A DNA stretch of 64,000 bases from Blastomussa wellsi (taxonomy: Eukaryota > Cnidaria > Anthozoa > Scleractinia > Plerogyridae): contig OX393570.1 of the NCBI GenBank assembly GCA_947652115.1, positions 2,350,366-2,414,365 of the forward strand. The letters run 5' to 3'. The first letter of the stretch is position 1, and each line of letters begins with the position of its first letter. Both the position numbers and the translations under genes were made by a program. The notes under the pieces are model-generated. The model saw nothing but the letters and a program-made list of their open reading frames with translations, searched no databases and was not told the origin of the DNA. Positions 4,148-12,988 of the stretch are shown one piece after another.

Positions 4148-6089
4148 TCATAATAAGGGAAGCGCTCGTTTTGCAGACTTTCCTTCAATCACGTGCCCAT
4201 CACGTGCTCTGTAACATTTTCCATCTTTGCACACTGGGTAATCCGCAGGACAGCAGTAGGTAGGTACCGCGGGCGGCGGTGGGCAACAGATCGTGTATTG
4301 CTGTGAACAGCATTTGTTGTGCTCACAGCAAGTTGCCTTTGGAAAAGGACAACACAGTTGTTCATCGAAGGTTTTGCTTTTAAACGTCAAGGAACCTGAA
4401 AAAGAATGCCAAAGATTCACTGAATGAGGTCATTAAAGTCTGCGATCGAGCCCAGTGGACTATCAGGGCGTTTTCCTACCCCCACACCACCCTGACTAAA
4501 CTTGTCCTTTATTCACGAGCTAAGTTGGTTGGGTTGACGACAATAATTCAAGGAAGTAGACCGCTTTTCGGATGAAAAGAGAAAAGATCTGAGAAGAAGA
4601 ACGTGCTGCGTTTCACCTGCTTACCTTCTCGATACTTTCAGTTTCGCTGAGTTAGCCGTTTCTTCATACACGGTTAATTTCTGGACAGTGCCATTGAGCT
4701 TTACGTAAAGCTGAGAAACATTAGGTACGTACTTGGCGACAAGTCGCTCGGTGTGTACTGCGTCCAATACAAGTTTTTTCGACCGCAAAGCGCAGCGAAA
4801 AATGTTACCGTGCCCACGAGAAGTGGAGGGGGGTGAGGGGGATGGGGGAGGGTGATTTTGAAAAAAAAAAACATTTTCTGCAAGCGCTTGTCAGAAAAAT
4901 CAAAAATTGAATGCAGCAGAAATGGAGGAAAAACATTCTTGCACGGCTCTAAGACAGAAAAAAGGGGAAAGAAGGGGAAAAATTATCCTGCAGAGCATTG
5001 GGAAGGGGAAAAATATCCTGCCCACCAGGTTTCTAGAAATCATCCACCTCCCCCCCATCCCCCGCCCAAAAAGAAGTAAAATGACGACTTGTCGAGTGAA
5101 AAACACTAAATGACAAAACAAACAATTGAGCTGTTTTCTTTTCCAAGACCTGAGTAACAACTTCCGTTAATTCGTCGACACCCATTTAGTGCTTTACTGT
5201 CCGCCAGATACTGATTTCTTTTGAGGTTTTTGAATTGTTTTATGATATCCTCCATCCCTATATAGTTAGCTTTATCTGGAATTGCTCGACAGTAGTGCAC
5301 ATATACAGAAGTTGATCATTCTTATGACAATGACGGAAGTATAAAACTGAAAGTATAAAGACGGAAGTATAAAACCGAAAGAGCTCTGAATGTCGTCTTC
5401 AATTTTCCTCAGTTTTATGAGATCTCACCTTTGCAGCAAGTCTGTTGTGCATCACTACCACAGCAGGCTGACGCCTGCGAGTCACAGGCTTGAGGATATG
5501 GTTGGGAGCAGCCACAGCCCGCTCTGACGATGTTAGCGTCTTCCATACACCGAGAGGTGGCTTGCTGACACCACAGGGAAACCGTCAGGTCATCACCGGC
5601 TGCCTTCCAGTATTGCAATGTTAGCAGCTTTGCAAATGTTGTAAACTGAGCAAATCGAGAACCGCCAAAAGTAAACGACATGTCGACCATCACGTTCTGC
5701 ACTTGACAGCAAAGACTGTCGAAGGTTGATATTACTTTCCGGGCGTCTTCGATGGCCGTCTTCAAGCTGATATCCAACAGGTCTTCGATCTGCCCCTCGG
5801 TAAGGCATGGCACAGAGGAGCAATTACAAGGAACGTTCCACTTGGTCACAGGACCGCTCACAAACTTGTCGTAGTCGGCTCCAATCGACTCGAACACGTC
5901 AGGTGCGCCTTTGTTCTGCATGTTGTAACCAACACCAATGGTCTTGATACCCTTCGTGTCGAGATAAACGCAGGGCTTTTTGCCTTCATGCCTTATGATC
6001 ATTGGTTTTGGATCGCATTGTTCAGCTCGGAAACCTTGCAATAAGGTAAACAAAGATAGCGATAGTAAAATCATCTTTGTCAACTCCAT
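4148..6089 (-). CDS. Secreted T4-type (GH24) lysozyme fused to a granulin-like domain
   Basis: Two exons, 6089-5429 and 4395-4148, joined at a phase-1 intron (AAAG|GTGAGA donor, TTTTTCAG acceptor), encode 302 residues. Residues 1-22 are a signal peptide (MELTKMILLSLSLFTLLQG). The GH24 fold begins at Cys25. The phage T4 lysozyme triad is present with exact spacing: Glu35 in IIRHEG, Asp44 in YLDTKG and Thr50 in KTIGVGY (E, +9, +15). It should therefore cleave peptidoglycan outside the cell or in phagosomes. From about residue 195 the protein becomes Cys-rich and reads CCPFPKATCCEHNKCC at 235-250, the granulin hallmark, with further pairs at 257-258 and 268-269. An in-frame ATG 17 codons upstream is possible. 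I chose Met1 because it aligns with the start of the neighbouring paralogue. The gene is divergent from 7227-12594. Confidence 0.88.
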
Positions 6090-7226
6090 GTTTTCGCGTT
6101 TGAAACCTTCCGGAAGTTTGACTGACCCTGTAAAGTTCATAGAGTTTTATGGTGAAGCCTATTTCCTTATGCCGCCTCGTTATCACGCATCACGTGCCAA
6201 AACATGTGACACTCGCGCCTCTTTCGCATTGTTTGTTGCAATGTCATAATGGTAATTCGGCCTAGTGTGAAGTTTTCTTGTAATTTCATAAAGAATAAAA
6301 ATACACAGAGAGACAAAAAGCTCTTTTTACTCAGCTTCCGTTCTCAATCAATTCATTCAGTAGATCCCTTCCCGTGATAAAAAAAAAACATAGACACGCA
6401 ATGCGTGCAAGTGCTATTTTTTGGGAGTTTGGTGACAGAGAAGAAAAACTTGAATCAGCGGCCGATTACTTGGCATGATAGCGAAATAACTTTTCGATAT
6501 CATTCAAATGTTACGTTTCGTGGTTAAAAAATCGTACGCGCGCTAGTTTCAATAACATCTTAATAAACTATACATCAGAAGAATTGAAAGCTTGATAATT
6601 GGAGTTAACGACAAAAAACATAGTTTAACCCATATTCTCCTGGAGAGTTTTGCAAAAAAATGAAAATTGGGTTGTTCATCAAATATGATAACTTTCGTTT
6701 TTCGGAGAAAAATTAACGCATTTCTTTGACAATGAATGTCTCACACTGACTCACCTTTCATCAAATTTTGATGAAAGTATAACAACAGTTCAGACAATTC
6801 CGTCACAGTTTGTATGTTTATGCTGGGCGCGGCGTAAGAAAAAACTTATTTACAGATCTATCGGAAGAAACAAGTTGTGCTTTCTCATGCGTGATTGAAA
6901 AGTATCTTCGTGAGAGTTTGCTCAAGTGGCGCGATTTAATGCAGATGTGTTTAATAATAATCTGTTAACGAGGTGAGAAGGGAATAACACTTCATTTCTT
7001 TTTTCAAGAAGGATTGATCTTAACTGATTTTAGAATAGATGACTATTGAATTCCCAATAACCACGCGCGAGTGGTGCCAAAGTCACGCTTGAAATGACAT
7101 GACATTTGGAGAGCCATTTGAATTTTAGCGCGAGACAGCCATGTGCAAATTGAATCTTGTCGCTTTCCGAAAGCGATCGGGTTGCTTTCAGTTTCATTTG
7201 TGAAATATGGCTACGTTAGGATGATT
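6090..7226. promoter_or_regulatory. Shared divergent intergenic region between the two lysozyme-family genes
   Basis: About 1.1 kb separates the two start codons, so both 5' regions must lie here. The sequence is AT-rich and no TATA box can be assigned with confidence. A short upstream ORF (7141-7203) precedes the plus-strand start. Close head-to-head spacing makes shared control plausible but is not proof of it. Confidence 0.35.
7141..7203 (+). other. Upstream ORF ahead of the lysozyme-like receptor gene
   Basis: ATG at 7141 opens a 20-codon frame closing at TGA 7201-7203, 23 bases before the presumed main start at 7227 and out of frame with it. If it lies in the mature 5' leader it could lower translation of the main ORF. 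No transcript evidence is available. Confidence 0.3.
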
Positions 7227-10200
7227 ATGGAGTCGATCGGGAAAGTTTTGGCATCCTTTTTGCTGTTCCAGGCGTTCACATCTGTAACTTGCCGACTGTG
7301 CGATTTTTCCATTGAAAGCTCCGCGTCCAGTTGGGTTCGAAAGCCTTGTGCGTTTTTCTTCAGCCACAAACCTGAAACTAAATACATTGGATTTGAATTC
7401 CGATTACGAGATGACACGGCGGCGAAACGGGCTTTTGAAGTCGTGCAAGCGAATTTTAACGAGTTCTTTCACAGTCCTTTGACGCTTTGGAACCATAGCT
7501 GTGATTGTACTGAAGTACCATGTTTGAACGACGGACAATTGAACAAGTTGTTTGCTATCAGCATGGAGCAAGCCCGTCAAGAAGCGAGGTTGAGTTTTCC
7601 ATTTATTTCTACAGTATGTTGTTTTTTACAGCAAGCTTTGGAGGAAATCTTTTATCGGTTAGGTGGAAAGCAAGTCGCAACGTTAGCAAAAATCACTTTG
7701 AAAGAAATTAACATGCAGAAATGGACAACATGTTTGATTGATGGACTTCGACAAACGGAATGGTGTGAATCGTTCAGAGCGAAATGTGAGGCTCTCGTGC
7801 AACGCATCTCGAAAGGATGCGAAGGAAAAACAAGGGAGGAAAGAGATATTGATGAAATAAATAGCACAATGTGTGGCCTGTCTTCATGCGACCACGGTAA
7901 GAGCCAATTATTCAAATAGCTTATCGTTTCATTCAATGTTTGCATAGTGTTTTCAACAGGTAGCTGGCGGTGCCCGCATAAGGATTGCTCGGAAATGCCT
8001 TTTTGACGGGAAAACTATCGAAGTATTTTTTTACATTCATGCGGTATTTATTTTTACCATGACTAAAATTGATGAAATATCTTTAAAAGAAGCGAAGCTA
8101 AGCCGGAATATCCGATGATTTAGTTCACTGTAGTTTACGTTAATATGCTTGTACGTACTTTTTTCGAGCTTTTTTCGGGGATGTCGGTTTCATATATATG
8201 TCCTGAACGTGAAATTATAGGTGCGGAAAATTCTTCTTTAAACCTTTCAGTTTATCGCTCCTCTTCCAAAAGAGTTTAACCTTTATAGGGAAGGCGAGTT
8301 AATTAAATGTTTATCTGGAGGGCAATTAATGTTAATAAATGCATATATATTTGCTTTTTCATTTTCATTCGTGATGTAAAGTGAAAGATATTTGTGCATT
8401 TCCAAAAGCATAGCTAATTGTGACTTCACCGAAAGCGTTTTAAAACTACGGGAATCGCGTGCAAAAGGAAAAGCTTGATTTGCCCGTGTTACTGAAGCAT
8501 TAAATTTTTTAATAACCTCCATAAAGCTAAGCAGCAACAAAATGAAACAAAACACAAAAGCCTGCCTTGCAATAAGGACAAATTAATTACATGTCTGTCG
8601 ATATATTCGATTGCTTGCGTCAAAAGGCAACCGCGGAAGCATATAGGCCGACGACGTTTATTCAGGTTTATTTTCTAATAACGGAGGATGTTGCATCACA
8701 TGTTATTTTTTAACCTGTGGCAGATATGTTATGGTCATCTAAAATGTAAATTACTCACAATTGATATTACAGTACTGTTTTGGTGTGGTCTTGTTCGCCA
8801 TGTGCGAAATAGCGCAACAATTAAAGCTAATTAAGAAATAGCTAATTCCCGCTGAATGTGTAAAAGCCTGTTATATTTATAACTTTGGAGGCATATATTA
8901 AAATGACAATCCGATATCACAAAAACCTGTCTTGTAGGCCTAAACCTGCCACCTGCCTCGTACCCAGGCGCCTCAAAGTCACGCAAAAGGCCATGGGAAG
9001 GCTCAACGAATCTTTGGGCGCCGGCATCATAAGTGGTTCTCAAGGACGCGCCTGTGTACGAGGCAGGGCCTAAACTTAACTACCCGTCAAACTTTTCGCT
9101 TGCTTTCGTGCATGATTTAGTCCCCGCCTTTCCTGATACTCGGTCCAGTCTGCCTTGCCTTAGGCCAAATTTGGTCAGAGAGTTCGTTGTCGTCTTGACG
9201 ATGATTCAAAGGAAGATACGAGGAGCTTGAAATAAATTCTGCACCACAAAAGTGGCGGTATTCCAGTGTGATTTTGTTGGAGAATACAGCGCTTACCACT
9301 AATCAGAAATGACAGGCCAGACTGTTCCATTCATGAAGAGAATTCCGTTATTAATCAGAACTGTTCGGTCAAATCAGTCAATTAAGAAACTGTATTCACC
9401 CCTGTGATGAAATTTTGATAAAAATCAACCAGGAAAACTCTCAAAAGAAAGCCCTATTTATATTAAAATATAACGATCTGGCCGGCCAGTCCCGATTAAT
9501 GGTAAGCGTTCGTCCTAAAAGACCTTGTGCCTTTGAACGCGCGTGAATTCTCGCGAGGGTCACATGCAAGCAAATCTGTGCTTCGCGATTGCGCCTCGCG
9601 TCGGGCATAGACGTCATCAGTTGTATCAGGGCGAGAGAAAAACATAAATTGTTTTGCAGTCTACATGCGTGCATGAATATTGACAAGCATGCCTCTAAAA
9701 GGTTTCAATAAATAATTCCATGGTCCCGAATAACTAACAACATAATTTATGTTGCAGATATTCGATCAGTCTCTCCGACACCACTGAAGAAAGTAAAAGA
9801 AGCATCACATCTTAGAGTACAAGACTTGATGAGCACATCAGCGCAACGCTTTGCAGCTTCAAGATCGACAACGCTTGTAAGCAGCGTAAACCTTAGTGAA
9901 AACAAGTCAGTGATGGTGCCATTAACGGCAAGTAATGCTGGATCAGAAAGTTCTGTTCGTGTGCTAACCTCGAGTTTTAGCATTGGAACCGCATTGACGC
10001 CCGCTCTCACTCCTTTCCCGGCCATTTCATGGAGCACAGCACTGTCTGCGTCATCTTTCATATCTACTTACACGACGCCTACTTTAGGTTCGATGAAGGC
10101 TGTATCTTTAGGAGACACGATATTTTCCAAAACGCGCGCCCGTTCCTTAGACGCTTTCTCTAAGTCCACTAAATCATCTTGGAATTCCACTCAGAACTAT

Positions 10201-12594
10201 TTCAAAGGGAAAGCGACTGAAACTTTTATCGCTTCTCCTGGTCAGACAAACACAGCGCCCTTTCAAGCCACTTTTTCTCAGGGCAAGGTGTACCTATTAA
10301 CCCTTTCTACAGTATCAGACACTGCTAACTTGTCTCAGCATTTCTCCACAAAAACTTTCGCAGTTGCACGAAGTACCGTTAAGGGATATTTGGCGACGAA
10401 CCTTTCTACACCAAACACGCAATTAATAACAAATTCGCCAGTACTTAGAACAAAAGCACTGAGTTATCGCGCATCGATGAAAATATCGAGCGCTATAACT
10501 ACACTAAGATATCAAGCCACCGACATGGCACAATCACCGCCAGTTAAATCAAGTTTTGAGTTAAGAACTTCAGCGCGCGGTGTCAGATTGGCAAATTTCA
10601 CGTCGGGCAAGACAATATCCATGGCAACCCATGTAGCTCAGAATAACGCTTCTTCGAAGGCAACCAACTCTGCTCTTCAAATGAGCAAATCTTACGTGTC
10701 AACTTCACAACAGACCTCTCGCCCTTTAGAAGACGAAACGCTATCACTGTCTGTCATAACGGCATCAAATTTCCCACGGCTGTCAAAGAGCTCATCAGCA
10801 ATGAATTCGACTTTAGGAGAAAGGCTTAGTGAACAGCGAAGAAGTGAATCTATACTGGGCATTACCGTTGCTTCTGCGGCGACACTCATATCACGTTCTT
10901 CACACCCTAATACGGCGGGGAACACAACAAACATCCTACACCACCCACCCTTCAGCAAAGGCAATAATTCTGATGTATTGACGACATCTTCACTACTGTT
11001 ATCCAAATCAAGAAAGGAATTTAAGATATCTTTTTCGTCTCCAATGCAGAGAATACCGTTTTCATTGACACCTTCTTCGTCCTACTCCTTCTCCTCAAAC
11101 ACCAACTCCATCGTCATCACTACCTCCTCATCTTTCTTCGCCATCAACTACTCCTTCTCTTCCATCCCCTCGTCGTCGTCGTCATCAAAAGGATCCCCAT
11201 TTTCGCTACATTTTCAACCATCCTCATTGTCGTCGCTATTTTCGTCATTATCCATATTGACTCTGTCATCATCATCATCATCATCGTCGTCATCATCATC
11301 ATCATCATCATCATCACCTCTACTACCAACACTGTCATCGTCGTCGTCGTTATCATTCTTAACAACAACAGTGGCAGTTATTGGTCCACCAGCAACACCA
11401 AAACCCTCCTCTTCTTTGCCATCATCCTCGCCCTTGTCACTACAATGGCCGTCAACAGATTCTTCACTTTCACCAACCATAGGGTCATTACCAACATTAA
11501 TGAAAACAAAGCCAACATCGTCATCACCTTCACTACCGACCATCACAGAATCCAAACTTTCACTCGCGCCAACACTAATGCGCGTGTCTTCACGCTTATC
11601 CGCGCTTCCGAATCTAACTTTGAGCACGAAAACTCCACTTATTCCTGAAAGCACGAAACACTATTCTTTATGGCTAACATCGTCGGGGACAACATCATCT
11701 TCCATTGTACGAGAAACACTCAACAATTTGTCTTACGTTCGAACAATAGCTTCTTCATCCAGCATCCTTCACACATTGGAATCGTCGACTTCACGGTCAA
11801 GCACAGAATCACCAGTAGTTAGTGAAACGTTTCTGGTCAAGTTCAAAGCTAACTGTAGCATTATAACAGACATGAATGATTTCAAATTTAATTTTATAGC
11901 CACACTGACATATCTGCTACGGATCCCAAGGACTGACGTCATAGTCCATGACGTAACCTGTGGTTCGGTGGCTGTTCTTTTCATGATTAAAAGTACGCAT
12001 GGAAGAAACTTAACAAGCGAACTTTGGGCAGCGATAAAGAACGAATCATTTGTATTGACGTACAATGGATCAGAATTTAGAGCGTTTGAACTGAAAGAGA
12101 TCTTGAAACCACCCGTGACTTTTACAGGTTCCCCTATGTATCCCTCGACGCCATCAGAAACTTCCAAGCACGAGACGAAAAAGATCGTTTTTATAATATT
12201 CGTGTTTATTGGTTCAGTGTTCGGAGCCTTGTTTATATTTTTATTAGTAGTCTTTTTGGCTAGGTTTTCCGGCTGTTGCCGAAAGGCTGGGAAATTGCGC
12301 GTGCGCAGAAGAGGTCGTTTGCGTCCACCTTTTGAATCCGAGTTGAAACGGTTTGCAGTACGTGCAAGCTTCTACGAAGGGGTGAATTACTACGGAGATA
12401 TCTCTCAATTGGAGGAAAACAAGAAAGATGTCGTACTGGGTGACGACGATGTTGAGGAGGATTTATCTGAAATTCATCCAGTTGATACGAACGCTTATTT
12501 GTTAAGTCATAATCACACAGAGTCCAACAAACTCGAGGAACGCAATTTTGTTTTTGATGACGATGACTCGTGCTCAAGTGTACTATTTTACTAA
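7227..12594 (+). CDS. Catalytically dead lysozyme-like domain on a mucin-like, single-pass membrane protein
   Basis: Exons 7227-7896 and 9758-12594 join at a phase-1 intron (CACG|GTAAGAG, TTGCAG acceptor), giving 1168 residues. Residues 1-22 are a signal peptide. Residues 23 to about 200 match the neighbouring GH24 lysozyme (CDCTEVPCLNDGQLNKLF against CNCSSVPCLTEGQIEDLL). The catalytic Glu, Asp and Thr positions now hold Trp36, Phe45 or Ser46, and Tyr53. Residues about 225-910 are Ser/Thr-rich and free of Cys, with a poly-Ser run near 727-750, so heavy O-glycosylation is expected. Residues about 912-1015 form a compact module with VTCGSVAVLFMI, resembling SEA-like juxtamembrane domains. A transmembrane helix spans 1033-1059. 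The 109-residue tail is basic near the membrane, then acidic, with Tyr1096, 1101, 1102, 1137 and 1168. It is probably a surface binding or sensing protein rather than an enzyme. Start 7221 is an alternative. Confidence 0.8.
8946..9066. repeat. Mutator-like MITE with a perfect 9-bp target duplication
   Basis: The inverted ends CTGCCTCGTACCCAGGCGC (8953 onward) and their near-perfect complement ending at 9066 define a 121-bp element. GGCCTAAAC occurs at 8937-8945 and again at 9067-9075, a perfect 9-bp flanking duplication. It sits in the single intron of the lysozyme-like receptor gene. Confidence 0.75.
11254..11355 (+). repeat. Coding TCA/TCG trinucleotide microsatellite (poly-Ser)
   Basis: A run of TCA and TCG triplets, in frame as serine, lies inside the mucin-like part of the receptor gene. 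The triplet period keeps the frame open, so length changes would alter stalk length without breaking the protein. Confidence 0.8.
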
Positions 12595-12767: not shown

Positions 12768-12988
12768 CAGGAGCCCATGAGAAGGAGCCTCCATCTCCCA
12801 TACTGACCATCTGAGTCAACCCTGTCCCGTATCTTTCTATTTTTAGAAGCATTTCCCACTGTGGTTTTCGCGGGTGTTTTTGTAATAGCCAATCATGTGA
12901 GAGCTCACTGTTCTGAAGATAAAAAGATACGGGACAGGGTTGACTCAAGGGCAAAGTGCGAATGGAGGCTCCTTCTCATGGGCTCCTG
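12768..12988. repeat. Fold-back MITE with 26-bp perfect inverted ends and 7-bp target duplication
   Basis: 12768-12793 is the exact reverse complement of 12963-12988 (it begins CAGGAGCCCATGAGAAGG). A second inverted pair lies inside it at about 12812-12835 and 12924-12947. TCAGAAC flanks both sides (12761-12767 and 12989-12995). The 221-bp element codes for nothing. Confidence 0.85.

Follow-up and report, generated by a model that had tools for sequence, protein, structure and literature searches.

The DNA analysed here, hereafter the window, is a stretch of 64,000 nucleotides from the stony coral Blastomussa wellsi (assembly GCA_947652115.1, contig OX393570.1, positions 2,350,366 to 2,414,365 of the forward strand); all coordinates below are positions within it. 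On its forward strand, at 7227–12594, lies a two-exon gene for a predicted membrane protein whose N-terminal head appears to be a lysozyme that has lost its catalytic residues. Exon 1 (7227–7896), delimited from the sequence and its homologues, encodes a signal peptide and this head, and ends at a phase-1 donor (G/GTAAG directly after 7896). The intron (7897–9757; 1861 bases, phase 1) runs from GTAAG to TTGCAG, the acceptor standing directly before 9758. Exon 2 (9758–12594) carries the stalk, a SEA-like module, the transmembrane helix, the tail and the stop codon. Joining the two exons in phase 1 creates Asp224 at the junction and yields a single frame of 1168 residues that stops at 12594. The 944 stop-free codons of exon 2 compare with a longest stop-free run of 186 in 200 base shuffles. 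From the N-terminus, the parts are the signal peptide, the head with ten conserved Cys, a short linker with two more Cys, the stalk, the SEA-like module, the transmembrane helix and the tail. A first-pass annotation of this DNA had proposed the in-phase splice at 7896/9758 and a signal peptide on exon 1; the splice is borne out by the donor, the acceptor, the phase and an identical junction in two coral gene models, and the signal peptide is a judgement by eye.

The head has a close neighbour with which it can be compared. About 1.1 kb away, on the opposite strand and in head-to-head orientation, is the gene for an intact T4-type lysozyme. Its first exon (5429–6089, reverse strand) retains Glu, Asp and Thr, which align with the T4 active site, matches T4 lysozyme with an E value of 5e-9, and ends at a phase-1 donor. 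The head and the neighbour share 26% identity over 210 columns in BLASTP (94 bits, E 3e-28), and a profile built from 20 heads matches the neighbour in hhalign with a probability of 99.4 (E 1.6e-21). All twelve conserved head Cys align with Cys of the neighbour, the ten that precede the furin-type site described below as well as the two beyond it. These similarities make the head and the adjoining lysozyme paralogues, as the first-pass annotation had held, and its homology to T4-type lysozymes holds indirectly, by way of the neighbour gene. Searched alone, by sequence or by profile, the head gave no credible match in Pfam, NCBIfam, PHROGs or the PDB; set against a phage tail lysozyme in hhalign, the head profile scored poorly, with a probability of 19.9. 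A tree, in which the dead heads stand together opposite a single active branch of great length, contributes little. The neighbour is of some interest in itself as an intact T4-type lysozyme in an animal genome (4148–6089, reverse strand), and may be a phage-type gene of long standing in corals. A probable second exon (4148–4395, reverse strand), its splice join inferred from sequence, would add a very Cys-rich tail to a product that is probably secreted. Pairs of adjacent Cys in that exon suggested a granulin-like reading, which Pfam did not support, giving no granulin match.

The catalytic residues of T4 lysozyme (Glu11, Asp20 and Thr26) were traced through the heads by three alignment methods. 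Trp36 (7332–7334) faces the catalytic Glu in MAFFT and hhalign, and Ser does so in BLASTP; the Glu is thus lost in every alignment. Phe45 (7359–7361) faces the catalytic Asp in all three. The Thr depends on the method: within Thr51-Lys52-Tyr53 (7377–7385), T4 Thr26 stands opposite Thr51 in BLASTP and MAFFT and opposite Tyr53 in hhalign. The first-pass annotation had all three residues replaced, and for Glu and Asp this stands, whereas the change from Thr to Tyr is uncertain and varies with the alignment. The catalytic region is present in 22 of the 24 sequences available (the window and 23 relatives), since P0017 and P0021 begin within the domain and are blank at these positions. Among those 22, the MAFFT column of the catalytic Glu holds Trp in 19, Ser in two and Phe in one; that of the Asp holds Phe in 20 and Val in two; and that of the Thr holds Thr in 14, Ala in five, Ile in two and Lys in one, hhalign placing a conserved Tyr there instead. 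Because Glu has become Trp, Ser or Phe and Asp has become Phe or Val in all 22, we do not class the head as a lysozyme enzyme; the loss of these catalytic residues, like the architecture, is well supported. The region is not decaying: over the first 40 mature residues of the head the majority residue accounts on average for 0.75 of a column, compared to 0.73 overall, and the Trp column ranks third of 202 by relative entropy.

At the border between head and stalk all 23 relatives carry a furin-type motif, R-x-K/R-R, which the active neighbour lacks in its first exon; its local form is REER (7833–7844). It seemed conceivable that the ten head Cys pair among themselves, in which case furin would have to free the head. 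This idea was rejected, because the two Cys past the site align with Cys of the neighbour as well.

Beyond the junction, exon 2 has the make-up of a membrane mucin. The stalk (residues 224–914; 9758–11829) comprises 691 residues, 44% of them Ser, Thr or Pro, with 13 N-glycosylation sequons and not a single Cys. The SEA-like module (11815–12102) is modelled with a pLDDT (predicted local distance difference test) score of 86–94 per ten-residue block over model residues 11–100, which, together with VIA rows 1–11, supports a SEA fold for it; Pfam found no SEA match in the window protein or in the exon-2 proteins scanned, so that the module suggested by the first-pass annotation is upheld by predicted structure and not by Pfam. 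Within it, Gly959-Ser960 (11962–11967, in CGSVAV) has the form of a SEA-type Gly-Ser site, CGS[V/I] being present in 78 of 78 relatives, and the motif makes it a putative self-cleavage site. The most hydrophobic stretch of the whole protein, at about residues 1032–1055 (12181–12252), is a helix in the model and the predicted transmembrane segment. It is followed by a cytoplasmic tail of about 113 residues (12253–12591) ending in SSVLFY, and this ending is found in 75 of 78 relatives, the others reading SSILFY (two) and PSVLFY (one). Composition and hydropathy thus bear out the Cys-free Ser/Thr stalk and single transmembrane helix noticed earlier, and with the signal peptide and the tail the protein has the parts of a transmembrane mucin.

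Relatives were sought with three queries. Of the 178 candidates retrieved with the head within the full-length protein, a single one was a full-length relative, the 955-residue hypothetical protein OS493_010454 of Desmophyllum pertusum (E 3.6e-55). The Desmophyllum model spans the same junction (SSCKN-D-IGSV against SSCDH-D-IRSV) and likewise has the membrane helix and tail. Compared to an open reading frame (ORF), P0009, this model (P0001) is missing 39 head residues, while elsewhere the two differ at one residue of 180; the gap is likely a mis-annotated intron. Querying with the head alone returned 22 relatives, one of them a 403-residue gene model from Porites lobata that also spans the junction and whose first 150 stalk residues have up to 149 identical positions in exon-2 ORFs. 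The other 21 read past the junction into Gly-Lys (17), Gly-Arg (three) or Gly-Thr (one), as fits a phase-1 GT donor. The end of exon 2, used as query, returned 78 relatives. Leaving Desmophyllum aside, 72 of 77 reach the junction, where Val-Asp (68), Ala-Asp (two) or Val-Gly (two) fits a phase-1 AG acceptor; the other five begin inside the exon. The 78 do not stand for 78 species, because 73 of these 77 look like Porites. For alignment, the heads were reduced to 20 rows (A4, without P0001, P0017, P0018 and P0021; the tree omits P0017 and P0021), and exon 2 was represented by the window and 16 of its 78 relatives (A3). Desmophyllum and Porites belong to the suborders Vacatina and Refertina, respectively, the two deep branches of the stony corals. 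The architecture, the splice and the catalytic loss recur in relatives from other stony corals.

Some features in and around the gene may be recorded here. Upstream of the start the reading frame is still open (7122–7226, forward strand), and the window has GTG roughly where several relatives carry ATG. An in-frame N-terminal extension of 22–30 residues is present in 12 of the 22 head relatives, and these extensions resemble one another. The upstream frame might be a conserved 5′ leader or an alternative start. The intron contains an inverted repeat (9290–9508) with 42-base arms that are 76% complementary. Just 3′ of the gene is an imperfect palindrome (12768–12988), with arms 100% complementary over 27 bases and 92% over 37, which is possibly a small mobile element.

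Four known systems invite comparison. GH24, or T4-type (phage-type), lysozymes are described as having been taken up by bivalves in the abstract of PMC5303276, in whose text a term search found neither ‘coral’ nor ‘cnidaria’. The head shares with them its homology, through the active neighbour and the twelve Cys common to it; unlike them, it is without the catalytic Glu and Asp and is anchored in the membrane on a mucin stalk. Transmembrane mucins of MUC1 type are reported from the anemone Actinia tenebrosa in parts of PMC9080433, whose main text does not contain the word ‘lysozyme’. The signal peptide, Ser/Thr/Pro stalk, SEA module and transmembrane helix are common ground, whereas the pseudo-lysozyme head and the furin-type site are additions of the coral protein; with its head taken away, the protein is a MUC1-like mucin. 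In dystroglycan, according to passages of PMC4582122, there is a Gly-Ser alpha/beta site as well as a furin site, at which the N-terminal domain is considered to be released. The two proteins are laid out in the same order: a globular part at the N-terminus, a furin or furin-type site, a mucin-like region, the region of the Gly-Ser site, the transmembrane helix and the tail. In place of IG1-S6, however, the coral protein has a lysozyme-derived head, Pfam finds no IG domain in it, and its tail contains PPFE and not PPxY, the dystrophin-binding motif of the dystroglycan tail; it is therefore not a dystroglycan. Peptidoglycan recognition proteins (PGRPs) resemble phage amidases, and some are transmembrane (PMC7308585, in part). 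They provide an analogy only, that of a phage-type wall enzyme become a host recognition protein; Pfam found no PGRP match in the window protein or the heads, and it is to a muramidase that the head shows homology. PGRPs differ in fold and chemistry, being of amidase and not muramidase type.

How might such a protein have arisen and what might it do? In both neighbouring genes the lysozyme domain occupies one exon that ends at a phase-1 intron (first coding exons of 661 bases in the neighbour and 670 in the mucin gene), and because of this shared intron we propose duplication together with exon shuffling. Most simply, a lysozyme gene would have been duplicated head to head and the copies would have acquired different downstream exons, a Cys-rich tail in one and, at the phase-1 intron, the mucin-SEA-transmembrane exon in the other. 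The mature protein may then undergo two cuts, one made by a furin-type protease where the head meets the stalk and the other a self-cleavage at the Gly-Ser of the SEA-like module, with the head, or head and stalk together, either set free or kept attached. The head would bind a ligand without cutting it, its former catalytic positions now being taken by conserved aromatics (Trp, Phe and perhaps Tyr); the ligand would most likely be a glycan of microbes or algae encountered at the surface of the epithelium. The conserved tail and its terminal SSVLFY could provide a link to the inside of the cell, perhaps by a contact of PDZ type. The first-pass annotation had likewise suggested a surface protein that binds peptidoglycan or microbes without hydrolysis, which remains a reasonable reading; its architecture, splice and loss of Glu and Asp stand. 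Neither the furin-type site nor the Gly-Ser motif was noticed in it, and the conserved C-terminus and the phase-1 intron common to both genes also escaped it. The order of parts, the loss of Glu and Asp and the conservation across corals are carried by the aligned sequences. For the reading as a whole, a transmembrane mucin of stony corals with a T4-type (GH24-like) lysozyme-derived pseudoenzyme head, working by the steps proposed, we put the probability at about 0.5.

Several observations weigh against it. The furin-type site in the window reads just REER, and a head freed by furin would not serve as a tethered receptor. The Trp column is merely tied for 49th of 202 by majority fraction, and because Ser replaces Trp in P0001 and P0009 (Desmophyllum-type) and Phe replaces it in P0020, this Trp is not indispensable. 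The Porites lobata model ends within the stalk. Pfam lysozyme models are matched by none of 20 heads, and profile searches matched none of the lysozymes in the PDB. The AlphaFold model of the head is poor (pLDDT 52) and lends little weight; we accordingly infer the lysozyme fold from homology, and since the old cleft cannot be placed in such a model, an aromatic-lined pocket is conjecture.

The same evidence bears on other explanations. If the head no longer binds sugar, the lysozyme fold could persist as a stable, disulfide-rich cap for contact with host proteins (in cell-cell adhesion, self recognition, gametes or matrix), making the protein an adhesion mucin in the manner of dystroglycan. 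We consider this possible, though on the unlikely side: it gives no account of why a lysozyme was chosen, and the lack of an IG domain in Pfam and of PPxY in the tail tells against it. A more specific form of the preferred reading, in which a phage-type lysozyme has become a coral surface receptor for peptidoglycan or symbiont glycans, a dead muramidase that a mucin mast holds up, cleaved both by furin and at the SEA site and taking the part that PGRPs play in other animals, is in our estimation unlikely. The conserved furin-type site, present in every relative and missing from the neighbour's first exon, also suits a soluble pseudo-lysozyme that is released to serve as decoy or regulator, for instance by sequestering bacterial inhibitors of lysozyme or by vying with the active neighbour for substrate, while the stalk-SEA-membrane part acts alone. 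That would sit poorly with a bare REER in the window and with the alteration of the very cleft residues an inhibitor would read; moreover, the two Cys beyond the site align with neighbour Cys just as the ten before it do, so that a disulfide may hold the head after the cut. The last point lowers slightly our estimate for a decoy, which we regard as distinctly improbable.

It could also be supposed that a degenerate lysozyme and an unrelated mucin are two separate genes joined by prediction only. The join is indeed known here through genomic sequence and gene models, of which the Desmophyllum model drops 39 head residues and the one from Porites lobata breaks off within the stalk. Against this, models from two suborders agree in the residue and the phase of the join, junction codons fit phase 1 in 21 of 21 head ORFs and in 72 of 77 exon-2 ORFs (the remaining five beginning inside the exon), and the dead head is still conserved; two genes are thus very improbable. 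Scarcely credible, finally, is a head that still acts as a glycoside hydrolase through other residues. The former active-site segment is conserved as much as the rest, as such an enzyme would have it, but both Glu and Asp are replaced in all 22 sequences. A role in the skeletal matrix was considered and set aside, the passages of PMC4890752 mentioning just a mucin4-like matrix protein and no lysozyme.

The pseudo-lysozyme membrane mucin of corals is apparently undescribed. Among the matches listed, the literature contains no paper on such a protein (most subscription papers were outside the scope), and the claim of novelty in the first-pass annotation holds to that extent, whereas sequence databases already include the unnamed Desmophyllum ‘hypothetical protein’. 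Passages in PMC7563517, PMC4178034 and PMC5909685 mention lysozyme, or activity resembling it, from anemones or corals and do not name such a gene, and ‘lysozyme’ does not occur in the main text of PMC4890752 or PMC12960093. Pfam is blind to the family, with no lysozyme or SEA match in any dead head or exon-2 protein scanned.

Because the cutting residues are lost and yet the domain is conserved, the data suggest that a lysozyme has been recruited as a recognition or adhesion part at an animal surface. Corals rely on being able to distinguish microbes from algal symbionts, and PGRPs are reported absent from Nematostella in the part of PMC7308585 that treats them. For surface recognition this protein offers a concrete candidate that would be easy to test: a lysozyme head conserved without its catalytic residues and carried by a membrane mucin, found in two suborders and, in the window, encoded next to its active sister gene. 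If the reading is correct, a phage-type wall enzyme would for a second time have become an animal surface protein.

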